Assembly: GCF_003367905.1 (NCBI RefSeq)
Contig: NZ_CP029462.1
Coordinates: 868,001 to 932,000 of the forward strand
Reading direction: 5' to 3'
Source: Megasphaera stantonii
GTDB taxonomy: Bacteria > Bacillota > Negativicutes > Veillonellales > Megasphaeraceae
DNA: 64,000 bases
In this document: positions 3,020 through 53,043 of the stretch, in pieces
Layout of the letters: the number at the start of each line of letters is the position of its first letter
How positions within the stretch are numbered: the first letter of the stretch is position 1
Made by a program: the position numbers and the translations under genes
The notes under the pieces: generated by a model
Databases searched by the model: none
What the model was told of the DNA's origin: nothing
What the model saw: the letters and a program-made list of their open reading frames with translations, nothing else

Positions 3020-3523
3020 TTATATTGCCTTTATCAGCTCTTCTAACTCATTCAATACAAAAGAAAGTTCTTTATCATTTGCAATAGTATAGTCAGCCGC
3101 ATTGCGGTATAAAGCAATGCGTTCATCGTACAAATCATAAACCTTCTGCTTCCCCTCTTTGAGAAGCGGACGGCTGGCTACATCGACGTCGGTGACGATG
3201 TCGTCTGGCGAGCGGTCGATAAAAACTACGACTCCCGACTGCTTAAATATCTGTATATTTACAGGACGCTTAATGACGCCGCCGCCGCAGGCAATAACCA
3301 GACCGCGCTTTGCAGCCAAGGCTTCAGCGGCTCTCGTCTCAGCGTCGCGGAAGTAGTCCTCGCTGATAGCAAACATATCCGGAATGGTCTTTCCTTCCAG
3401 CGCAACGACAAAATCGTCGGCGTCGATGAATTCCCGTCCCAGCCGGCTTGCCAAGGCTTTTCCGAAGGTTGTCTTGCCGCTGCCGGGCATGCCGATGATA
3501 ACGATGTTTTTATCATTTTTCAT
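3020..3523 (-). CDS. aroK: Shikimate kinase
   Basis: A 167-residue cytoplasmic P-loop kinase that phosphorylates shikimate to shikimate 3-phosphate with ATP. The Walker A loop GMPGSGKTT is at residues 11-19, the acidic shikimate/Mg-binding segment FIDADDF at 32-38, and the GGG of ACGGGVI at 80-82, all expected for AroK/AroL. The length is normal. It is the last gene of the aro operon; its start overlaps the end of aroE by 11 bp, with AGGAGATGG upstream of the ATG, so the two are probably translationally coupled. An intrinsic terminator follows. Confidence 0.95.
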   Translation of the reverse strand: MKNDKNIVIIGMPGSGKTTFGKALASRLGREFIDADDFVVALEGKTIPDMFAISEDYFRDAETRAAEALAAKRGLVIACGGGVIKRPVNIQIFKQSGVVVFIDRSPDDIVTDVDVASRPLLKEGKQKVYDLYDERIALYRNAADYTIANDKELSFVLNELEELIKAI

Positions 3524-4337
3524 ATTGCTTTTCCATCTCCTTTGCTATCTCTTCAATGACAGCTGAATCAATACGCCGTTCCTGCCATATTTCTTCAGCA
3601 CCTACAGCCTGAGCGACAAGCATATACATGCCATTCAGCGTCACTGCGCCATGCTTTGCTCCCCAGGCCAGGAGCTTCGTCGTCTTCGGATTGTAAATCA
3701 AATCGACGACGGCTTGGTATCCGACGACAACCGATTCCGGAACCGGCGACTCCTCTACATTCGGATACATACCGACAGGCGTACAGTTTACCAATATATC
3801 GCCACGGTGTTCTTCCAATTCATTATAACTAATAAGTTCAGCATGCAGCCCTGCCGCAAATGTTTCAAATTCCGTATCGTCTTGTATCCTCCGCGATACG
3901 ATAGTCAGAGACGCCGCCTCCTTATCAGCCAAGCACTTCAAGATGGCCCGGGCCGCGCCGCCTGTACCGAGAACGACGCATTTTTTTCCCTGTACATCGA
4001 TGCCGGCATGATCCAGCGAGCGGCCAAAGCCATGATAATCCGTATTATAGCCAAAATCGCCCTGGCTGGTCATATATATTGTATTGACAGCGCCAATGAC
4101 ATGGGCTTCCCTGGCAATATCATCCAGACACGGCATGACATCCCGTTTATAGGGAATCGTCACGTTGACGCCGGTATAGCCGCGCCGTTTCAGATCTTGC
4201 AGAGCCTTTGCCACTTCGCCTCGTTCTACTTCAATCAAATCATAGTCTCCATCTATGCCAAGGGCTTTGAAAATAAGCCTATGAATCGCCGGTGACTGGC
4301 TGTGTCCCAGCTTCTCACCAATGAGCCCGAGTTTCAT
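3513..4337 (-). CDS. aroE: Shikimate dehydrogenase (biosynthetic)
   Basis: A 274-residue NADP-dependent shikimate dehydrogenase. It carries GEKLGHSQSPAIH at residues 7-19, catalytic Lys64 in NVTIPYK, Asp100 in YNTDYHG, and the dinucleotide loop GTGGAARA at 124-131. A longer frame runs upstream to 4424, but I chose the ATG at 4337 because AAGGAGGG lies 9 bases before it and family similarity begins there. It overlaps the end of pheA by 23 bp and aroK by 11 bp, indicating one transcript. It is distinct from the paralogue at the left window edge, which differs in motif detail and belongs to another operon. Confidence 0.94.
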   Translation of the reverse strand: MKLGLIGEKLGHSQSPAIHRLIFKALGIDGDYDLIEVERGEVAKALQDLKRRGYTGVNVTIPYKRDVMPCLDDIAREAHVIGAVNTIYMTSQGDFGYNTDYHGFGRSLDHAGIDVQGKKCVVLGTGGAARAILKCLADKEAASLTIVSRRIQDDTEFETFAAGLHAELISYNELEEHRGDILVNCTPVGMYPNVEESPVPESVVVGYQAVVDLIYNPKTTKLLAWGAKHGAVTLNGMYMLVAQAVGAEEIWQERRIDSAVIEEIAKEMEKQYEK

Positions 4338-5187
4338 GGCCAATTCCCTCCTTGTCTGACGGATAGTTTCCCAATATTTTAAAATATTTGCACGTTCTTT
4401 CCAGAGCCTGCAAGGTTCGGACAACGCCAGGATCTTTCATGCTGCCCATAACATCGATGTGAAAAAAATATTCAAATGGCCGACCTTCAATAGGCCGCGA
4501 CTCCAGATGGGTCATATTCATATCGTTGTAGAAGAAATGCCCCAACACGTGATACAACGTACCCGGCGCATGATGAACAGTCAGGACAAGGGTAATCTTA
4601 TCCGCCAGCCCCGACTCTTCCGAATGGGGGGCTATCACAAAAAATCGGGTAAAATTCGTCGGATTGTCGTTGACATCGCGCTCTAAAATAGTCAGGCCGT
4701 ACATATCGGCAGCCGTACTGTTGGCAATGGCGGCAATATCATGACGCCGTTCCTTCTGTACAAATTGGGCGCTCTGCGACGTGCTGTAGTAAGGACACAC
4801 CGTCCAGTCGGCATGCTTTGTCAAATACTTCCGGCACTGGGCCAATCCCTGCGGATGGGAATATACCGTCCGTATATCTTCTAATTTCGTGTCTCCATAC
4901 GCCAGGAGATGATGCTCTACCTTCAAATATCGTTCGCCTACAATACGGCAGTCATACTTGTGTATCAAATCGTATACTTCCGTTATACCTCCTGTAGAGG
5001 AGTTTTCAATAGGCAGGACGCCGTAGCGCACCGTGCCGTCGGCCACGGCCTGCACTAAGTCAGCGAATTGCCCGTAGTATGTCGGCGTTATAGGCTTCCC
5101 GTCAAAATGTCCCATCATCGCCCGATAGCTGTATGAACCGGGAGTTCCGAAGCATCCGACAGGAATGGAATACTCGTCTGTCGCCAT
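4315..5187 (-). CDS. pheA: Prephenate dehydratase
   Basis: A 290-residue monofunctional prephenate dehydratase (prephenate to phenylpyruvate, the Phe branch). The PDT domain starts at the N-terminus (CFGTPGSYSYRAM); the catalytic TRF motif is at residues 180-182. The C-terminal ACT domain carries the Phe-binding ESRP motif at 229-232, so feedback inhibition by phenylalanine is expected. There is no chorismate mutase domain, unlike E. coli PheA. It sits 6 bp after aroC and overlaps aroE. AAGGATG precedes the ATG. Confidence 0.95.
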   Translation of the reverse strand: MATDEYSIPVGCFGTPGSYSYRAMMGHFDGKPITPTYYGQFADLVQAVADGTVRYGVLPIENSSTGGITEVYDLIHKYDCRIVGERYLKVEHHLLAYGDTKLEDIRTVYSHPQGLAQCRKYLTKHADWTVCPYYSTSQSAQFVQKERRHDIAAIANSTAADMYGLTILERDVNDNPTNFTRFFVIAPHSEESGLADKITLVLTVHHAPGTLYHVLGHFFYNDMNMTHLESRPIEGRPFEYFFHIDVMGSMKDPGVVRTLQALERTCKYFKILGNYPSDKEGIGHETRAHW

Positions 5188-5193
5188 ATATCT

Positions 5194-6285
5194 TCACATC
5201 CTTTTTTCTGTAGAAAGCCATACGTCCAATATTGCCCAGCTTGCCGCCGCCTCGACGACGGGCACGGCGCGCTGGACGATGCAGGGATCGTGCCGCCCCT
5301 TAATTTCCAGCGTGCAGTTTTCCTGTGTATCCGTATCTATTGTTTCCTGCAGGCGGCTGATGGACGGCGTAGGCTTGACAGCGACGCGGAACAGGACGGG
5401 CATGCCGTTGGTAATGCCGCCGTTGATGCCGCCGTTGCGGTTGGTCTTCGTCCTGACAGCGGCCCCGTCATAATAGAAGGCGTCGTTGGCCCCGGAGCCG
5501 CGCATGGAAGCCAGGGCAAAGCCGTCGCCGAATTCGATGCCCTTGACGGCCGGCACGGAAAACATCATATGGCTCAGAGCGCTTTCGACGGAATCGAAGA
5601 AGGGATTTCCCAATCCGGCAGGCAGGCCCGTAATCATGCATTCGATGACGCCGCCTACCGAGTCGAGGTCGCCCTTGGCTGCCATGATTTCCCCTTCCAT
5701 TTCAGATTGCTTCGTCTTGTCCAATACGGGCAAAGTTTCTTGTTTCAGCGATTCAAACAGCGCTTCGTCTTCGCCCAGGGGATGAAAGGACGCGTCGCGG
5801 ACCGAGCCGATTTGCAGGATATGCGCGCCGACGGCGACGCCGCGCCGCTTCAATATCTGCGAGGCCACTGCGCCGGCAAAGACCAGAGGCGCCGTCAGGC
5901 GGCCGGAAAAATGCCCTCCGCCGCGGAAATCGTTATATCCGCCGTAACGGATTTTGCCGCTGTAATCGGCATGACCGGGCCGCATGATATGGCGCAGCTG
6001 GTCGTAGTCCTTGGAGCGGTGGTCGCCGTTGCGGATGACGGCGCACAGGGGCGTCCCCGTCGTATAGCCGTTGAAAAAACCGCTCTGCACTTCAAAGGCG
6101 TCGGCTTCGGAACGAGCCGTCGACATAGCGTTTCGCCCCGGCGCGCGGCGGGCTATTTCCGTCCGCACAGCATCCCAGTCGATAGCTTCTCCTGCCGGCA
6201 GGCCGTCGAGGACGGCCCCGATAGATACGCCGTGGGATTCGCCGAATATGGTCAGGGCGGCGGACCGCCCGAATGTATTGTTCAT
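5194..6285 (-). CDS. aroC: Chorismate synthase
   Basis: A 363-residue FMN-dependent enzyme converting 5-enolpyruvylshikimate 3-phosphate to chorismate. Family landmarks are visible: TIFGESHGVSIGAVLDGLPAG near the start, the basic segment RRAPGRNAMSTAR, and RPGHADYSGKIRYG in the middle. Length is normal for the bacterial enzyme. RBS GGAGGAATAAGGC is placed before the ATG at 6285. It lies 3 bp downstream of aroA, inside the operon. Confidence 0.96.
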   Translation of the reverse strand: MNNTFGRSAALTIFGESHGVSIGAVLDGLPAGEAIDWDAVRTEIARRAPGRNAMSTARSEADAFEVQSGFFNGYTTGTPLCAVIRNGDHRSKDYDQLRHIMRPGHADYSGKIRYGGYNDFRGGGHFSGRLTAPLVFAGAVASQILKRRGVAVGAHILQIGSVRDASFHPLGEDEALFESLKQETLPVLDKTKQSEMEGEIMAAKGDLDSVGGVIECMITGLPAGLGNPFFDSVESALSHMMFSVPAVKGIEFGDGFALASMRGSGANDAFYYDGAAVRTKTNRNGGINGGITNGMPVLFRVAVKPTPSISRLQETIDTDTQENCTLEIKGRHDPCIVQRAVPVVEAAASWAILDVWLSTEKRM

Positions 6286-6288
6286 GCC

Positions 6289-7572
6289 TTATTCCTCCAC
6301 TCTGTATATCCCGCCGAGCTTGGCAAAATCCTGCCAGAAATCAGGATAGGATTTGCGCACGCATTCGGCGCCTTCGATGACCAGCTCGCCGCTGCAGCGC
6401 TGCGACGCAATGGCCAGGGCCATGGCGATGCGGTGGTCGTTCCAGCCGCTGACCCGGCCGCCGGTAAGGGCTCCTACACCGCAAATGATGAGGCCGTCCG
6501 GCTCTTCTTCTACGCAGCCGCCAATTTTATTGAGCTCCGTCGCAATGGCGTGAAGGCGGTCACACTCTTTCAGCCGCACGCGGGCTCCATGGATAATATG
6601 CGTCGTCCCCTGCCCGCAGGAGGCAGCCACAGCCAAAATCGGCACTAAATCGGGACAATCTTCCACGTCGATGACCTGACCCGTCAACTGCGACGGATGC
6701 GCCGCGATAGAATCCGTCTGCCCTATGACAGCGCCCATGCGCTGCAAAATGGAGACGATGACTTCGTCGCCCTGAGACGACGAATGGCGCAGGCCCAAGC
6801 ATTCCACAGGGTGTCCCAGCGTCCCGGCTGCAAGCCAAAACGCCGCCTGCGAATAATCGCCTTCGACGGCGTATGTCCCGGCCATATACTGCTGATTTCC
6901 AGGAATATGAAACAGGCGGCCTCCATCCCATTGAACGTCAACGCCGTGACGGGCCATGCAGTCCAATGTCATGGTAACATAACTCAGCGATTCCAAGGGC
7001 GTCGTACTCTCCAGCACCGAGTCTCCGTCCAAAAGGGGAAGCATAACCAGCAGGCCTGTAAAAAACTGGGAGCTTACGTCGCCGGCCAGGGCGTATCGTC
7101 CTGGTTGAAGACAGCCTTCCACCGTCAGGGGAAGACCGCCTTCCGTCGGCTTGTAAGACACACCGTGTTCGTCGAATATGCGGTAGTACGGCTCCAAGGG
7201 CCGTTTGACAAGCTGGCCCCGTCCCGTATAGACGACGGTATTGCCGCTGTATAAGCCGATGGGAATCAAAAAGCGCAGGGTGGAGCCAGATTCGCCGCAA
7301 TCAACAGTCAGCGCCTCCCCTTGTTTCGTCAGCCCGCCTTTGACGCGATACGCCGTCCGCCCTTCGTAGGCCGACGGGATTTCTTCAATCGAAGCGCCGA
7401 AGGCCTGCAGCAGCCGGCACGTCGCCTCAATATCCTGCGAGACGGAAATATTTTCTACGACGCTCTCTCCCTGAGCCAAGGCGGCACATATGAGCTCGCG
7501 ATGTCCAATACTTTTCGACGACGGGACGACGACAGAACCGTGAAGACGCGTCGGCGTAATACGTATATTCAT
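6289..7572 (-). CDS. aroA: 5-enolpyruvylshikimate-3-phosphate synthase
   Basis: A 427-residue EPSP synthase, which transfers the enolpyruvyl group of PEP to shikimate 3-phosphate. It shows the N-terminal VPSSKSIGHRELICAALA motif, the ECGESGSTLRF-like segment (here DCGESGSTLRF), a PLEP-containing stretch, and the C-terminal SGWNDHRIAMALAIA motif. Two inside-out alpha/beta domains of the usual size are expected. It overlaps nothing; spacing to aroC is 3 bp and to aroB 4 bp, consistent with a single transcript. Confidence 0.96.
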   Translation of the reverse strand: MNIRITPTRLHGSVVVPSSKSIGHRELICAALAQGESVVENISVSQDIEATCRLLQAFGASIEEIPSAYEGRTAYRVKGGLTKQGEALTVDCGESGSTLRFLIPIGLYSGNTVVYTGRGQLVKRPLEPYYRIFDEHGVSYKPTEGGLPLTVEGCLQPGRYALAGDVSSQFFTGLLVMLPLLDGDSVLESTTPLESLSYVTMTLDCMARHGVDVQWDGGRLFHIPGNQQYMAGTYAVEGDYSQAAFWLAAGTLGHPVECLGLRHSSSQGDEVIVSILQRMGAVIGQTDSIAAHPSQLTGQVIDVEDCPDLVPILAVAASCGQGTTHIIHGARVRLKECDRLHAIATELNKIGGCVEEEPDGLIICGVGALTGGRVSGWNDHRIAMALAIASQRCSGELVIEGAECVRKSYPDFWQDFAKLGGIYRVEE

Positions 7573-7576
7573 GAGG

Positions 7577-8644
7577 CTACTCTCCCTTGCGTATATATTT
7601 CGGCAGTTCGTCGGCCATTACCGGAAGAAGCTCACTTTGGCCGATAGCTTTAAGGATAATCAGCGTCATGCGGTTGCCCCGTTTCTTTTTGTCGTTGCCG
7701 ATATAACGGAGCAAATCATCTGCCGAAGCCTGCACGTCTGTCGGCAGGCCATAGCGGCGCAGCACCTTGCAGAGCCGTTCAGTCGTTCCCGCTTCCGTCA
7801 AGCCCATGTGTTCCGTCACGCCGGTCAGCATAGCCATGCCGGCGGCAACGCCTTCGCCATGTGTATAATAGCCGTAGCCATAGCACCGCTCGATAGCGTG
7901 ACCGATCGTATGACCGAAATTCAAAAGCATCCGTTCGCCCAAATCCAGCACATCTCGTTCAACAATGCGCCCTTTGGCCTCACAGCAGCGGCCGATGATA
8001 TCTTCCCAATGACCGGATATCGTCTCGTCGTCTAAGGCTTCCAGCAAAGCGAACAGCTCTTCGTCGTGAATACAGCCGTATTTGATCACTTCGCCCATAC
8101 CGTCGTGGATAAACCGCAGGGGCAGCGTCCGGAGCAGTTCCGGGTCGATGAGGACGCCTTTGGGCTGGTAGAAGCTGCCGGCCTGGTTTTTACCGCTGGG
8201 CAGGTCGATGCCGACCTTGCCGCCGACGCTGCTGTCTACCTGGGCGATAATCGTCGTCGGAATCTGGATAAAGGGCACGCCCCGCAGGAATGTAGCCGCG
8301 GCAAAGCCGCCCAGGTCGCCGACGACGCCGCCGCCGAAGGTGATGATATAGTCGCTGCGCGTAATGCCCGCGTCGGATAATTCCTGGTACAGCTGCAGGA
8401 GGGTCTCGGCGCATTTATATTTTTCCCCGGCGGGAAAGACGATGCGGCGCACGTTGTAATGCTCCTTGCGCAGGGCCTGTTCCAGCCGGTCGCCGTACAA
8501 GCCGTCGACCGTCGTGTCGCTGATGACGGCGAGGGTCTGCGATTTCGTCAAATTGCGGACGTACTCCCCGGCCCGGTCCAGCAGGCCGTTTTCGATATGA
8601 ATATCGTAGGAATCTTTTCCTAAATCAATGTGTATGCTTTTCAT
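7577..8644 (-). CDS. aroB: 3-dehydroquinate synthase
   Basis: A 355-residue NAD- and metal-dependent enzyme that cyclises DAHP to 3-dehydroquinate. The glycine-rich NAD-binding segment FGGGVVGDLGGFAAA spans residues 103-117. Candidate metal ligands are Glu185 (DGMGEVIK), His249 (NFGHTIGHAIE) and His262 (YTHGEGVAAGM). Length is standard. The start overlaps the 3' end of tyrA by 20 bp. The partner enzyme for the next step, dehydroquinate dehydratase (aroD/aroQ), is not in this operon or window. Confidence 0.96.
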   Translation of the reverse strand: MKSIHIDLGKDSYDIHIENGLLDRAGEYVRNLTKSQTLAVISDTTVDGLYGDRLEQALRKEHYNVRRIVFPAGEKYKCAETLLQLYQELSDAGITRSDYIITFGGGVVGDLGGFAAATFLRGVPFIQIPTTIIAQVDSSVGGKVGIDLPSGKNQAGSFYQPKGVLIDPELLRTLPLRFIHDGMGEVIKYGCIHDEELFALLEALDDETISGHWEDIIGRCCEAKGRIVERDVLDLGERMLLNFGHTIGHAIERCYGYGYYTHGEGVAAGMAMLTGVTEHMGLTEAGTTERLCKVLRRYGLPTDVQASADDLLRYIGNDKKKRGNRMTLIILKAIGQSELLPVMADELPKYIRKGE

Positions 8645-9515
8645 GAACTAGTTCCCTTCTCCGCATGGCGGCTTGCTGCAAATACTGCGTAATGGCCGGC
8701 GTGTCTTCCCGGCGGAGCATGTCGGCAAAGGTCTGCAGGGCGTCGCCGAAGCGGTCGATTTCGTACAAGAGATTTTCTTTATTGGATAAAAACAATTTTG
8801 TCCACAGCGGCGCGTTGATATCGGCGACCCGCGTGCCGTCGCGGAAGCTGCCGGCCACGAAAAATTTGGTCATCGGGCTCATGGCCTCGCTGTTGACCAA
8901 GGCCGTAGCCAGCACGTGAGGCAGGCTGCTCGTGTAGGCGATGAGCTTGTCGTGCTCCTCCGGCGACACGGTGACGACGTGGGCGCAGCCTAAGGCGTAG
9001 GCCATCGCCCGCACCTTGCCGATGTGCTCCGCCTTATTGGCCGGGCTCGGCACGATGATGTAATTCGCGCCGTCAAAGATTTCCGCCTGCGCCATGCCGT
9101 AGCCCTTGCCTTCCCGGCCGGCCATGGGATGTCCCGATATGAAATCGACGCCTGCCGGCAACATCCCTTCGATGGTCCGGGCCATGTCGCCCTTGATGCC
9201 CGTCACGTCCGTCAGGATTGCGCCGTCCTTGAAATGGGCGGCGTTGCCGCGGATAAACTCCAGCATGGCGTCGGCGGCCATGCAGAAGATGAGCATGTCG
9301 GCCTGGGCCAGGAATTCCCCGCCGGCCTGATGGCCTTCGTCGATCACGCCGTCGGCGAGGGCCGCCTGCAGCGCCTCTTCGTCAACGTCGACGGCGATGA
9401 GCTTCGCCGTGCCCAAACGGCGCAGCCCTTTAGCGTAGGAGCCGCCGATGAGGCCTAAGCCGATAATTCCGATTGTCTGTTCCGTTGCAAAATTGCAGTC
9501 TCCCTGTTCCATCAT
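8625..9515 (-). CDS. tyrA: Prephenate dehydrogenase
   Basis: A 296-residue NAD-dependent prephenate dehydrogenase (prephenate to 4-hydroxyphenylpyruvate, the Tyr branch). The Rossmann loop GLGLIGGS is at residues 19-26 and GHPMAGREGKG contains the catalytic-region His. There is no chorismate mutase domain and no C-terminal ACT domain, so feedback control is probably not through ACT here. Two ATGs are adjacent (9515 and 9512) after GAGGGGG; the second gives slightly better spacing. It is the second gene of the operon, 18 bp after aroF. Confidence 0.93.
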   Translation of the reverse strand: MMEQGDCNFATEQTIGIIGLGLIGGSYAKGLRRLGTAKLIAVDVDEEALQAALADGVIDEGHQAGGEFLAQADMLIFCMAADAMLEFIRGNAAHFKDGAILTDVTGIKGDMARTIEGMLPAGVDFISGHPMAGREGKGYGMAQAEIFDGANYIIVPSPANKAEHIGKVRAMAYALGCAHVVTVSPEEHDKLIAYTSSLPHVLATALVNSEAMSPMTKFFVAGSFRDGTRVADINAPLWTKLFLSNKENLLYEIDRFGDALQTFADMLRREDTPAITQYLQQAAMRRRELVHEKHTH

Positions 9516-10550: not shown

Positions 10551-10575
10551 AAATAAAAGACCCCCATTTCATCAT

Positions 10576-10602
10576 AAAAAAAACAGGCTCACATGAGCCT
10601 GT
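10576..10602 (-). terminator. Attenuator terminator between leader peptide 1 and aroF
   Basis: On the minus strand ACAGGCTCA-TG-TGAGCCTGT, a perfect 9-bp stem, is followed by a run of seven or more Ts. It lies 36 bp after the leader stop codon and 26 bp before aroF. A terminator ahead of the first structural gene is the hallmark of attenuation. The 7-nt segment complementary to 10684-10690 in the leader (CTCATGT on the minus strand, 10591-10597) spans the loop and part of the 5' arm, giving a possible antiterminator pairing. Confidence 0.85.
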
Positions 10603-10637
10603 CCCAAATGCAGTGTCAAAAGGTATATGCAGGTAGC

Positions 10638-10811
10638 TTATATTCCCCCTGCCGCTAAGCGATACGATTTGCCGAAGTTTCTTCTCATGCGGATGTCATG
10701 CCTATTCAATTCGTCGCAGCAAAAATAGCCAGCGCTAAAATAAAAATAGCCCCAGCTAAAGTATGTAAAGACGTATTCAATTGCATGGTTCACGAAGGAT
10801 AGATTCTTCAT
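10638..10811 (-). CDS. Aromatic leader peptide 1, controls the aro operon
   Basis: A 57-residue leader ORF with 11 aromatic residues out of 18 at positions 13-30 (Y13 F15 Y17 F18 W20 Y22 F23 Y24 F25 Y29 F30), including VFTYFSW and FSAGYF. The ATG at 10811 has AAGGGAG upstream and lies about 40 bp downstream of a consensus-like promoter; an in-frame ATG at 10907 is upstream of that promoter and is rejected. An intrinsic terminator and then aroF follow. Stalling of the ribosome at the Phe/Tyr/Trp codons when these amino acids are scarce would favour readthrough; this mechanism is inferred by analogy with trpL/pheL leaders. A paralogue lies at 12626-12787. Confidence 0.88.
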   Translation of the reverse strand: MKNLSFVNHAIEYVFTYFSWGYFYFSAGYFCCDELNRHDIRMRRNFGKSYRLAAGGI

Positions 10812-10853
10812 GGCGATGCCGCTCCCTTTTGCAATATGCTGTATAATAATGCT

Positions 10854-10883
10854 ATTATATACTCCGAAAAAGCCTCTTGTCAA
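10854..10883 (-). promoter_or_regulatory. Promoter of the aro operon leader
   Basis: On the minus strand TTGACA (10878-10883) and TATAAT (10854-10859) are separated by 18 bp. Transcription would start about 35 bases before the leader ATG at 10811. This is a near-consensus vegetative promoter, consistent with control by attenuation rather than by initiation. Confidence 0.8.
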
Positions 10884-10945
10884 GACGAGAGGCCTAATGT
10901 TTTTCACCTAGCAGGCTGTAAAATTGTCCTTTTGCCCTGAAAATA

Positions 10946-10973
10946 TTTACAAAAGCTAAGTCTATGATATAAT
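10946..10973 (+). promoter_or_regulatory. Promoter of the divergent DAHP synthase gene
   Basis: TTTACA (10946-10951) and TATAAT (10968-10973) with 16-bp spacing precede the gene at 11044. No aromatic-rich leader ORF or terminator is visible in the 70 bases between them. Confidence 0.6.
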
Positions 10974-11043
10974 ATGCTATAATTCGAGTATTAATCGCAA
11001 AAAGGCCGACCGGCCGAAACTGCTTACAGGAGGGAATAGTATT

Positions 11044-12078
11044 ATGGCAATGCAAATTGAATTCATCAGAAAACTGCCGTCGCCGCAGGAGCTTATGGAA
11101 CAGTTCCCCATTGACGACCGCATCCGCAGCATCAAAGCGCAGCGCGACGAGACGATCCGCCGCATCCTGACCGGCGAAGACGACCGCTTCTTGCTCATCA
11201 TCGGGCCCTGCTCAGCCGACAACGAAGACGCCGTCGTCGACTACGCCCATCGCCTGGCCGCCGTGCAGGAAAAAGTCGCCGACACCATCTTCATCATTCC
11301 CCGCGTATACACCAACAAGCCGCGCACCATCGGCGTAGGCTACAAGGGCATGCTCCATCAGCCCGACCCGGAAGGCAAGGAAGACATGCTGGCCGGCATC
11401 ATTGCCATCCGCGAAATGAACGCCCGCATCGTCCGAGAAACGGGATTCACCTGCGCGGAAGAAATCCTCTATCCGGAAATCTACCGCTACTTGTCGGACC
11501 TCCTGTCCTACGCCGCCGTCGGAGCCCGCTCCGTCGAAGACCAGCTCCACCGCATGATTGCCAGCGGCGTCGGCATTCCCGTCGGCATGAAAAACCCGCC
11601 GTCCGGCGATATCTCAGTCATGCTCAACTCCATCGCCGCCGCCCAGCACTCCCAGGAATTCCTGTTCCGCGGCTGGGAAGTCCGCACGAAAGGCAATCCC
11701 CTGGCCCACGCCATCCTGCGCGGCTACGTCGACAACTTCGGCAACAGCCTGCCGAACTACCATTACGAAGACCTGCACAACCTGCTGGAAGCGTACGCCG
11801 AACGGAAGCTGGCGAACCCGGCCGCCGTCATCGACACCAACCACGCCAATTCCGGCAAAAAATATCTGGAACAAATCCGCATTGCCAAGGACGTCATGCA
11901 CAGCCGCCATATGTGCCCAGACATCCGCACCCTCGTCAAGGGCCTCATGATCGAAAGCTACATCGAAGACGGCAGCCAGAAAATCAGCGAAGGGACGTAC
12001 GGAAAATCCATCACCGACCCCTGCCTGGGCTGGGAAAAGACGGAACGGCTCATCCTCGAGCTGGCCGACCTCGTATAA
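11044..12078 (+). CDS. aroG: DAHP synthase, class I-alpha (AroF/G/H type)
   Basis: A 344-residue DAHP synthase of the E. coli AroFGH subfamily: no ferredoxin-like domain, but an N-terminal extension with the FPIDDRIRSIKAQRDETIRRIL segment typical of the regulated alpha class. IIGPCSADN carries GPCS at residues 54-57; GMLHQPDPEGKEDM, GIPVGMKNPPSGD and DTNHANSGKKY follow. RBS AGGAGGGAA precedes the ATG. It is transcribed away from the aro operon and has its own promoter and strong terminator. With aroF, the cell has two differently regulated entry enzymes to the pathway. Which amino acid inhibits it cannot be read from the sequence. Confidence 0.93.
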   Translation: MAMQIEFIRKLPSPQELMEQFPIDDRIRSIKAQRDETIRRILTGEDDRFLLIIGPCSADNEDAVVDYAHRLAAVQEKVADTIFIIPRVYTNKPRTIGVGYKGMLHQPDPEGKEDMLAGIIAIREMNARIVRETGFTCAEEILYPEIYRYLSDLLSYAAVGARSVEDQLHRMIASGVGIPVGMKNPPSGDISVMLNSIAAAQHSQEFLFRGWEVRTKGNPLAHAILRGYVDNFGNSLPNYHYEDLHNLLEAYAERKLANPAAVIDTNHANSGKKYLEQIRIAKDVMHSRHMCPDIRTLVKGLMIESYIEDGSQKISEGTYGKSITDPCLGWEKTERLILELADLV

Positions 12079-15461: not shown

Positions 15462-16184
15462 TTATTCATATGTGCCGCCGGCAGCCACATTGGCGCGGCG
15501 GACATCCAGGGCAAAGGAACCCCTGTTGCTTTCCAGAATTTCATCTATGACGGCGTCGACGCCGATTTCATCGCACAGATCCAGCTCTTCCTTATAGGCC
15601 AGGATCGGCATGAGCAGCTCGACCGTCGTGCCGTCGGCCATAGTCAGGGCCCCCAGCTCGCCTTCAAACTGGACGATGATGACGCCGGACAAGTCCGTCA
15701 TCGGCGAAAAGGGCTCGCACGTCTCCGTATTGGGCAGGATAAACCCATAGGATATCCAGATTTGATGCACGTGGGGAAAGCGCCCCAGCTCCATGAGCAT
15801 CCAAATCGGCCAGGCCGCGGCGTCGGTCAGGGCGACGTCCTTCCCCTTGCCGAAGGGCCAGTCTGCCGGCAAAATCATGCACAGCTCGCCGTACACCTCG
15901 TGGCCCATTTCCAGCCTGCCGGCGGGGTAATGCATGGGAACGGCGCTCATCCCTATCGTATGCAGGAGATAAAAGGGCTCCTCTACGGTCGGGTACAGCA
16001 TTTCCACGCTGATGGGAATCGGGCTGGCCGTCGTGTCGGAAAAAACCTTCCATTCGCGGTGGGGAAACAGCTTATGAAAGTAGTCCTGCACCTGTTCGCC
16101 GTACTCGCCGTGACGAAGCGGCATGGGGCCGGCGTCGTTCATGGCGAAAAATCGCGAAGGTCGTTGTTGTATATCTATGCGCAC
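15462..16184 (-). CDS. Suppressor-of-fused (SUFU) domain protein
   Basis: A 240-residue bacterial SUFU-domain protein. Recognisable parts are HTIGMSAVPMHYP, the hydrophilic-to-hydrophobic strand ELCMILPADWPF and the PHVHQIWISYGF segment. I use the GTG at 16184, which has AGGAGGGATACA before it; the longer frame runs through the promoter-like TATAAT at 16212-16217. Bacterial SUFU proteins are often immunity proteins of polymorphic toxins or of unknown function; no toxin gene is visible here. It heads the operon with the FAD subunit and YqeC and is divergent from a nitrilase. Confidence 0.8.
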   Translation of the reverse strand: MRIDIQQRPSRFFAMNDAGPMPLRHGEYGEQVQDYFHKLFPHREWKVFSDTTASPIPISVEMLYPTVEEPFYLLHTIGMSAVPMHYPAGRLEMGHEVYGELCMILPADWPFGKGKDVALTDAAAWPIWMLMELGRFPHVHQIWISYGFILPNTETCEPFSPMTDLSGVIIVQFEGELGALTMADGTTVELLMPILAYKEELDLCDEIGVDAVIDEILESNRGSFALDVRRANVAAGGTYE

Positions 16185-16235
16185 TGTATCCCTCCTCACC
16201 AGTTCAGTCATATTATAGCATAAATGGCGGCTATA

Positions 16236-16260
16236 TCCTATGTATAATATCCACATAGGA
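16236..16260. promoter_or_regulatory. Inverted repeat between SUFU and nitrilase genes
   Basis: A perfect 8-bp inverted repeat TCCTATGT / ACATAGGA with a 9-bp spacer lies in the intergenic region of the divergent genes, and contains a TATAAT-like hexamer. It would be well placed for a repressor that controls both directions, though no regulator gene is adjacent. Confidence 0.45.
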
Positions 16261-36210: not shown

Positions 36211-36287
36211 TGGTGGCGGCTCGGAGATTCGAACTCTGGACACTGCGGGTATGAACCGCATGCTCTAGCCAACTGAGCTAAGCCGCC
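36211..36287 (-). tRNA. tRNA-Met(CAT), elongator
   Basis: A 77-nt cloverleaf with encoded CCA. The acceptor GGCGGCT pairs with AGCCGCC, the D arm is AGCTCAGTTGGCTAGAGC, and the anticodon loop TTCATAC gives CAT. The fully paired first base and this loop fit elongator methionine rather than the initiator or lysidine-type tRNA-Ile. Confidence 0.9.
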
Positions 36288-36292
36288 ATGTT

Positions 36293-36368
36293 TGGAGCTA
36301 TTGACCGGGATTGAACCGGTGACCTTATCCTTACCAAGGATACGCTCTACCGACTGAGCTACAACAGC
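36293..36368 (-). tRNA. tRNA-Thr(GGT)
   Basis: A 76-nt cloverleaf with encoded CCA. The acceptor GCTGTTG pairs with CAATAGC (one G-U), and the anticodon stem TATCC/GGATA encloses the loop TTGGTAA, anticodon GGT. Confidence 0.93.
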
Positions 36369-36423
36369 TTACACCGTTCAAAGCACATATACAGTTTTTC
36401 TTTACTGCCTTGCAGTAAAAATT

Positions 36424-36499
<76 letters not shown>

Positions 36500-36505
36500 A
36501 TGATA

Positions 36506-36591
36506 TGGTGGTGGGGGAAGGATTCGAACCTTCGAAGGCAGTCGCCGGCAGATTTACAGTCTGCTCCCTTTAGCCACTCGGGAACCCCACC
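36506..36591 (-). tRNA. tRNA-Tyr(GTA)
   Basis: An 86-nt class II tRNA with a long variable arm and encoded CCA. The acceptor GGTGGGG pairs with CCCCACC; the anticodon loop CTGTAAA gives GTA. Confidence 0.94.
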
Positions 36592-36596
36592 ATACC

Positions 36597-36672
36597 TGGA
36601 GCCGACAATAGGACTTGAACCTACAACCTACTGATTACAAGTCAGTTGCTCTGCCAATTGAGCTATGTCGGC
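36597..36672 (-). tRNA. tRNA-Thr(TGT)
   Basis: A 76-nt cloverleaf with encoded CCA. The acceptor GCCGACA pairs with TGTCGGC; the anticodon loop CTTGTAA gives TGT. It is the first gene of the cluster. Confidence 0.93.
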
Positions 36673-42600: not shown

Positions 42601-43047
42601 TTATCCTTCTACGACATGAACCTTGATGACGCTCGTAATGGTCGGATGAACGCGGATGACGACGTCGTACGTTCCCAGCGATTTAATGGGTTCCTTGATT
42701 TCGACTTTCTTCTTGTCGATGTCGATGTCGTACTGGGCCTTCGCCGCTTCGCTGATATTTTTGCCCGTAATCGCGCCGAATACCTTTCCGCCTTCACCGA
42801 CCTTTACGGGAATCGTCAATTCTACCTTTTTCAGCTGGCTGGCCAGGACGACGGCTTCGTCGGACGCTACCTGGGCCTTATGCTTAGCCGCCGCCTGCTT
42901 CTGCTTCGCGTCGTTGATGTTTTCCGACGTGCCCGGCGCGGCTAATTTGCGGGGCAGCAGGAAATTGCGGCCGTAGCCTTCCGATACTTCTATGATTTCA
43001 CCTTTTTTACCCAATTTTTTTACGTCTTGCAATAATATTACTTTCAT
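42601..43047 (-). CDS. rplI: 50S ribosomal protein L9
   Basis: A 148-residue L9. The N-terminal domain MKVILLQDVKKLGKKGEIIEVSEGYGRNFLLPRKLA contains the family signature, followed by the long connecting helix and the C-terminal rRNA-binding domain. Its ATG overlaps the gdpP stop codon (ATGA), so it is translationally coupled. Part of the conserved yybS-gdpP-rplI-dnaB neighbourhood. Confidence 0.97.
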   Translation of the reverse strand: MKVILLQDVKKLGKKGEIIEVSEGYGRNFLLPRKLAAPGTSENINDAKQKQAAAKHKAQVASDEAVVLASQLKKVELTIPVKVGEGGKVFGAITGKNISEAAKAQYDIDIDKKKVEIKEPIKSLGTYDVVIRVHPTITSVIKVHVVEG

Positions 43048-52623: not shown

Positions 52624-53043
52624 TTACTGCAGCTTTGCAATTAACTCATCGGTCACGTCGATGCCGCCGTTAGGCACGGCTTCTTTCACCATGACGATGC
52701 CCACTTCTTTTTCTTTAGCTATTTCGCCCAAGTTCGTCTGAATATCCGACATAAACTGCCGCTGCATGCTGGCGGCAAAAATATTCAATTCCTGCTGCGA
52801 CTGCTGCTGTTTCTTTTGGAAGTCTTCAGCCGACATCGTGCTCTGCGCCTTCTGCAATTCCTCCGTTACGGACTTTTGCTTTTCTTCCGTTTTTTCTTTA
52901 TATTTCTGTACGAGCGGCGCTTCCTTCCGCACCCGTTCCAAGTCGACGACGCCGACCCGGTCTTCGCCGCCGCATCCGGCAAGCATGCCGACGCACAGGG
53001 TTAACAGCGCGGCAGCCGTCAGCCGCTTCCACATTGTTTTCAT
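52624..53043 (-). CDS. OmpH/Skp-like periplasmic chaperone, lipoprotein form
   Basis: A 139-residue OmpH family protein. A lipoprotein signal peptide ends in LAGC with Cys24 as the lipidation site, so it is probably anchored to a membrane facing the periplasm. GVVDLERVRKEAPLVQKYK is the family start; a long coiled coil (45-100) forms the Skp tentacle, and EVGIVMVKEAVPNGGIDVTDELIAKL ends it. It is the third of three adjacent ompH-like genes, just before lpxD, as in many LPS bacteria. Confidence 0.88.
   Translation of the reverse strand: MKTMWKRLTAAALLTLCVGMLAGCGGEDRVGVVDLERVRKEAPLVQKYKEKTEEKQKSVTEELQKAQSTMSAEDFQKKQQQSQQELNIFAASMQRQFMSDIQTNLGEIAKEKEVGIVMVKEAVPNGGIDVTDELIAKLQ

Follow-up and report, generated by a model that had tools for sequence, protein, structure and literature searches.

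An aromatic-codon leader ORF as a probable ribosome-mediated attenuator of the aro operon in Megasphaera stantonii, with related leaders in Negativicutes and Clostridia

The aro operon of Megasphaera stantonii is preceded by a short open reading frame (ORF) dense in aromatic codons, and comparison across relatives indicates that this element is probably a ribosome-mediated transcription attenuator, a reading to which we assign a probability of about 0.85. An earlier, sequence-only reading had proposed attenuation of this kind ahead of the operon, and the comparison largely supports it. What the compared sequences back is the ORF, its aromatic character, a hairpin (P1) within the aromatic codons, the complementarity between a downstream strand (region 2) and the terminator (region 3), and the terminator itself.

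The aro leader and its surroundings

By the window we mean the whole stretch of DNA analyzed, 64,000 nucleotides of a genome that consists of one contig (2,652,760 bases). The features listed next all lie on its minus strand.

10883-10854, minus: match to a sigma-70 promoter, TTGACA-18-TATAAT (12 of 12 positions)
10811-10638, minus: leader ORF of 57 codons, translation MKNLSFVNHAIEYVFTYFSWGYFYFSAGYFCCDELNRHDIRMRRNFGKSYRLAAGGI and then a stop
10722..10775, minus: aromatic core, 11 of 18 codons Phe, Tyr or Trp (translation and leader alignment)
10727..10757, minus: hairpin P1, within the run of aromatic codons, with its arms at 10757-10747 and 10737-10727 (folding and comparison)
10684..10689, minus: region 2, CATGAG, candidate antiterminator strand (comparison)
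10592..10597, minus: region 3, CTCATG, terminator 5' arm and loop, putative partner of region 2
10576..10605, minus: intrinsic terminator (3:4) with T run, 11-pair stem at 10605-10580
10550-9534, minus: aroF, with which the operon begins, coding for a class I-beta DAHP synthase (NCBIfam)
3020..9515, minus: tyrA, aroB, aroA, aroC, pheA, aroE and aroK (NCBIfam; tyrA and aroK by best family, below the curated cut-offs)
12860-12831, minus: promoter of a second leader, TTGACA-18-TACAAT (by eye)
12787-12626, minus: second aromatic leader ORF, 53 codons (profile match, E 2.8e-5)
12606-12579, minus: terminator of the second leader, AGCAGGCTCATGGCAGCCTGCT plus T run (by eye)
12556-12146, minus: protein with paired ACT domains, 3' of the second leader (Pfam ACT_8)

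Promoter, aromatic-rich short ORF, terminator and first aro gene were all confirmed in the order that the sequence-only reading had described; the interval it marked was the ORF alone, with promoter and terminator outside. The operon runs aroF-tyrA-aroB-aroA-aroC-pheA-aroE-aroK. Residues 13-30 of the leader comprise five Tyr, five Phe and one Trp, and a GGGAG lies 10 nt 5' of its ATG (by eye). The leader has the highest aromatic count among the 1747 stop-to-stop frames of at least 18 codons in the window, and 11 aromatics in any of six frames arose in 1 of 4000 mononucleotide shuffles of 10552-11043. Two plus-strand frames, at 42945 (10 aromatics in 18) and at 52644 (9 in 18), were not accepted as leaders. 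The best named matches to the leader, in a search that possibly excluded the window's own record, are in Megasphaera cerevisiae, Megasphaera sp. NM10 and M. massiliensis. The leader ORF has no match in NCBIfam, and an Rfam scan of the window returned tRNAs only, with no T-box and no amino-acid leader family.

A GCCTCT...AGAGGC inverted repeat (10872-10893) overlaps the -35 box of the operon promoter and may be an operator or a terminator remnant; an operator was considered, and the repeat is not evident by eye in the relatives compared. Divergent from the operon lies a second DAHP synthase gene, class I of the AroFGH type (11044-12078, plus strand), with a promoter match of its own (10946-10973). 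By eye there is no aromatic leader 5' of this gene, so the two DAHP synthase isozymes may differ in control. The window also holds a gene for a SUFU (Suppressor of fused) domain protein (15462-16256, minus strand) and a cluster of five tRNA genes (36214-36672, minus strand).

Distribution of the leader and exchange with T-boxes

AroF was sought in 60 relatives and in 380 Negativicutes genomes, and 354 of the latter gave a match at 1e-80. We examined 79 aroF upstream regions (L001-L079), counting as a leader any ORF that has 7 or more aromatics among 18 residues and lies at most 420 nt from aroF. Relatives without a conserved ORF, which the sequence-only reading had named as evidence against itself, were looked for, and the outcome did not go against it: 68 of the 79 Negativicutes regions carry such an ORF (L051 through a competing frame). 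Another three (L048-L050) have 6 aromatics each and share a Veillonella-like peptide, L032 has its leader further out, at -502, and seven regions lack one (L024, L038, L061, L067, L069, L078 and L079). At L038 aroF is duplicated in tandem; the region examined belongs to the second copy, and the profile places a leader ahead of the first; in L024, from the genus of the window, no aromatic ORF is visible and the T run behind the hairpin is interrupted, as if leader ORF and terminator had decayed. A further 30 aroF copies, drawn from f24 and other lineages and sharing four places with the 79, formed a second set; none of them reaches 7 aromatics, the maximum being 6. The f-numbered families are here called Megasphaera, Veillonella-like and Sporomusa-like, which are names of our own choosing.

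Leader alignment A1 holds 40 of 71 leaders, the Veillonella-like ones being omitted because they do not align. A 40-leader profile matched 108 of the 380 class genomes at E 0.001, a lower bound because it misses the Veillonella-like type. In an even sample of the phylum (398 genomes) five matches were found at 1e-4, and the two outside Negativicutes both stand ahead of an aroF-like start (by eye). Eighteen further leader places came from the class, 17 of which lead into aromatic-pathway genes: aroF (10), tyrA (L143, L144 and L157), aroA (L147 and L150), pheA (L149) and a shikimate-kinase-like gene (L146). NCBIfam puts the aroA and pheA genes over cut-off, while tyrA and the kinase are assigned by best family below it. 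A match at L152 (G265, E 2.2e-4) was rejected as a leader, having no terminator by eye. In one genome (G122, L145) a single strand carries three leaders within 4 kb. Two of these resemble each other, an aroF start follows all three, and the aroF copy behind the third seems broken.

The family extends beyond the class. A search of 84,980 species genomes with the window leader gave 33 loci, 6 from Megasphaera and 27 from records of Clostridia or other Bacillota, including Clostridium magnum, C. carboxidivorans, C. drakei, C. ljungdahlii, Niameybacter and Tindallia. All 27 have the core WGYFYFSA(G/S), and terminators are present in all 20 of the Clostridia loci used in the larger swap test below. 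Judged by eye from protein starts, the genes 3' of the 27 leaders are aroF-like in 20 cases, a P-loop kinase in 5 (L119, L121, L123, L124 and L131, with products resembling shikimate kinase) and aroQ in 1 (L127), L117 being unassigned; in NCBIfam aroQ of L127 scores above cut-off, the L119 kinase fits shikimate kinase models below cut-off, and that of L123 does so weakly. Together, these results suggest a leader family common to many Negativicutes and some Clostridia and placed at several pathway genes.

A T-box senses tRNA charging by reading the tRNA directly, without translation, whereas the leader type described here relies on translation; T-boxes occur before aroF in other Negativicutes families. 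Among 24 leaderless or decayed aroF loci of the class scanned with Rfam (some from one genome), 13 have a T-box within about 200 nt of aroF, three have one about 1 kb upstream ahead of another gene (L094, L098 and L100), and eight, L024 included, have none. The same scan of 40 leader-bearing Negativicutes aroF loci, 20 of them only about 0.6 kb long, found no T-box. No locus was found to combine a leader with a T-box (0 of 40 versus 16 of 24), and the T-boxes that the sequence-only reading had expected in Firmicutes are often carried by the leaderless aroF copies of this class. The window's genome has 18 T-box matches, 6 above cut-off, with two below cut-off preceding trpS and pheS; the organism therefore uses T-boxes, though none was found at the aro leader. 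The Rfam leader families for Trp, Phe, His, Thr and Leu have no match in the window or in the scanned leader loci. The marks of TRAP-controlled leaders are (G/U)AG repeats and an mtrB gene in the genome.

Pairing within the leader RNA

P1 is formed by the codons of SWGY...SAGY, and that both its arms and its loop lie within the sensing codons is new as far as we have checked. In 13 aligned Megasphaera-family rows 96.8% of P1 cells are paired, compared with 22-50% in slid controls, and no pair is altered on both sides. Codon alignment of 51 distinct leaders (from 67 rows, Veillonella-like excluded) gave 83.5% paired cells against a permutation mean of 80.1%, with 0 of 5000 permutations, which ignore kinship, as high. 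This narrow margin reflects the conserved arms together with unpaired positions, the inner pair c1-x1 being open in 39 of the 51 and the outer pairs a1-z1 and a2-y3 in 8 and 11. Two-sided changes occur at four pairs: A-U to U-A at a1-z1; G-C to C-G, U-A and A-U at a2-y3; C-G to U-A at a3-y2; and G-C to U-A and A-U at b3-x2. For the f5 group, RNAalifold gave no structure when run on the whole stretch and, in the output listed, only part of P1 once the alignment was cut.

Codon choice points the same way. In the 27 Clostridia loci, whose codons are unselected because the loci were found through peptide patterns, Ser is encoded by AGC in 23 of 23 and 27 of 27 cases (background 0.145) and Gly by GGC in 25 of 27 (background 0.16); the 27 loci comprise only 10 distinct sequences and are hence related.

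These observations bear on whether the conserved object is the peptide. In TnaC the peptide stalls the ribosome together with Trp, and a similar nascent-peptide sensor would stall when an aromatic amino acid or a pathway compound binds in the exit tunnel. The core SWGYFYFSAGYF is indeed nearly letter-identical between Megasphaera and Clostridia. However, the conserved codons include those of the non-aromatic residues (Ser AGC and Gly GGC, over those 10 distinct sequences), which points to the RNA hairpin P1, and the compensated changes in P1 alter residues (SWG..SAG to TQS..GFG or SYS..GYG); in addition, the Veillonella-like leaders have just the aromatic run in common. On the codon and compensation results we set the peptide aside as the conserved object and regard a peptide sensor as improbable. 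The strong conservation of P1 could instead suggest an RNA element that binds a protein or small molecule at P1, with the ORF incidental. Such an element would hardly account for a frame that stays open with Tyr and Phe exchanging, for a core whose length varies by whole codons or for Veillonella-like leaders that keep the aromatic codons with no P1 of this type by eye, and 49 distinct leader loci gave no Rfam match; we consider it slightly less probable still. That the ORF encodes a small functional (membrane) protein preceding aroF by chance is very improbable despite its hydrophobic aromatic stretch and conserved core, given that the stretch behind the core is of variable length and, among Clostridia, shifts in frame relative to AUGAG, that the terminator separates ORF from gene, that NCBIfam has no match and that 17 of 18 further places lie ahead of aromatic-pathway genes.

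A candidate antiterminator emerged from the alignments. With the 13 Megasphaera-family rows cut ahead of the terminator 3' arm (alignment A2, 13 of the 14 f1 leaders, L007 omitted as close to L005), RNAalifold paired CAUGAG (10689-10684) with CUCAUG (10597-10592), and 78 of 78 cells are paired, compared with 17-71% in slid controls. In a swap test on 43 leaders of the class, pairing of leaders with their own terminators exceeded 20,000 of 20,000 permutations; on 63 leaders in six groups, Clostridia included (20 of the 27 loci), 0 of 20,000 permutations were as good (6.4 sd). The leaders in these tests were hand-picked, one or a few per lineage, and the permutations ignore kinship. In the 63-leader test the own-group block tops its row in f1, f4, f5 and, barely, Clostridia, whereas the f2 and Sporomusa-like blocks do not top theirs. 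The candidate antiterminator appears to track each leader's own terminator, in favor of the attenuation claim.

In Clostridia 21 of the 27 loci have AUGAG past the core, at a spacing of 25-28 nt in most of them, and the other 6 have none within 60 nt of the core. The motif lies in reading frames 0, 1 and 2 in 6, 14 and 1 loci, respectively, and therefore seems to be kept as RNA. In the Veillonella-like leaders the aromatic codons are matched by the stretch that follows them (1:2; 12 pairs, 100% of cells), and that stretch in turn pairs with the terminator arm (2:3; 8 pairs, 99.1% of cells); these predicted pairings are the textbook 1:2, 2:3 and 3:4 set. The underlying alignment A3 holds 14 of 20 f4 rows; L029, L030, L045 and L049 were omitted as near-copies, as were the divergent L047 and L052, whose omission favors the pairing.

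Several results weigh against an attenuator or limit the strength of the pairing. The antiterminator pairs show conservation rather than covariation in Megasphaera-family and Veillonella-like rows, none of them being altered on both strands. The stop codon lies well past region 2 (43 nt in the window and 13-51 nt at 20 of the 21 Clostridia loci), a distance at which a ribosome on the stop codon would scarcely shield region 2. For L001 alone, the duplex with the terminator arm is matched by 135 of 200 shuffles, only 6 of 67 leaders have a duplex reached by at most 10 of 200 shuffles, and shuffles fold as well as the region past the core (z -0.66). In these sequence tests the decisive signal came only from comparison across leaders, single-sequence tests being weak. 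Across leaders, an antiterminator sharing the 5' arm of the terminator is present as a conserved potential pairing.

Proposed mechanism, precedents and meaning

In the proposed attenuator, RNA polymerase would start just past the promoter (10883-10854) with a ribosome trailing on the leader ORF. With charged aromatic tRNAs in ample supply, the ribosome would cross the aromatic codons and region 2, the terminator would form and the transcript would end near 10576. With charged aromatic tRNA scarce, the ribosome would stall in the Phe/Tyr/Trp codons, opening P1 and exposing CAUGAG of region 2, which would take CUCAUG of the terminator 5' arm and loop; the terminator would then come too late, and aroF and the rest would be transcribed. 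At 6-8 pairs the antiterminator duplex would be short, and in the window 86 nt separate its two strands; its success must therefore depend on timing. In the fed state of the Megasphaera type, ribosome passage and fast terminator folding would presumably keep region 2 unpaired. Stalling, the kinetic competition, the role of P1 as a pause or timing hairpin and the identity of the tRNAs that count are what we infer beyond the conserved features.

The leader alignment bears on what would be sensed. Eight of nine mostly aromatic columns are 82-97% aromatic, with Tyr and Phe swapping (e.g., 26 Tyr to 12 Phe), and such interchange without loss of aromatic character agrees with the sensing of codons for any aromatic residue. 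Phe, Tyr and Trp are all present in 55 of 70 leaders and Trp is lacking in 12 of 70 (L051, with its competing frame, excluded). The further suggestion that one leader integrates all three end products is weakened by those 12, and also by the AroR leader peptide of Corynebacterium glutamicum, described as responding to Phe and not to Tyr (PMC11802643).

The kind of mechanism is already known from trpL and pheL. In trpL the Trp codons lie within one strand of the first hairpin, whereas P1 has both arms and its loop inside the aromatic run, and the leaders described here match no Rfam leader family. As described in part of PMC11802643, enteric trpL and pheL likewise combine an ORF rich in end-product codons, alternative hairpins and an intrinsic terminator before a biosynthetic operon; they sense one amino acid each, whereas here a mixed Phe/Tyr/Trp run stands ahead of the common pathway. 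C. glutamicum aroR, a Phe-Tyr-Phe leader before the DAHP synthase gene aroF, is described as responding to Phe limitation, Tyr having no effect (PMC11802643 and PMC4046766, in part); it belongs to another phylum and has three aromatics where the present run has 11, and we liken the two by description. Acholeplasma uORFC-13-1, which stands with a terminator ahead of aroF and contains one or more Phe codons, is reported, in the portion of PMC8632094 available, only from Acholeplasma and environmental DNA, with no mixed aromatic run described there. His leaders are known in some Firmicutes, according to parts of PMC9413887 and PMC2965389.

The Fig. 6b legend of a 2019 study mentions a pair of candidate uORFs, notable for Phe and Tyr, that are located at shikimate genes; Clostridium novyi is among the five genomes of that study, and according to its accessible text some motifs of this species are also present in Negativicutes (PMC6429828). 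Compared by that legend alone, these uORFs may be the clostridial side of the present family. The available part of PMC11109978 describes no aromatic leader, and a literature search on aromatic leaders in Negativicutes or Clostridium, which took in few subscription papers, found no other description among the papers listed. As far as we have checked, what is new is how far the family extends, the placing of the hairpin wholly in sensing codons, the presence of a second leader in the window and the alternation of leader and T-box. More tentatively, and with somewhat less than an even chance in our estimate, these may be one leader family in which all of P1 consists of sensing codons, so that shortage of any aromatic amino acid would melt P1 and free AUGAG, a device adopted by aroF, tyrA, aroA, aroQ, pheA, aroK-like kinases and an ACT-domain gene and alternating with the T-box at aroF in one class.

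These findings suggest that translation-coupled attenuation, best known in proteobacteria and actinobacteria, is apparently a regular form of control of aromatic biosynthesis in Negativicutes and is used also in Clostridia, where T-boxes are usual. The swap between leader and T-box at aroF within one class offers a natural series on the replacement of sensing systems, and the mixed leader would be a direct test case for one attenuator weighing three end products.
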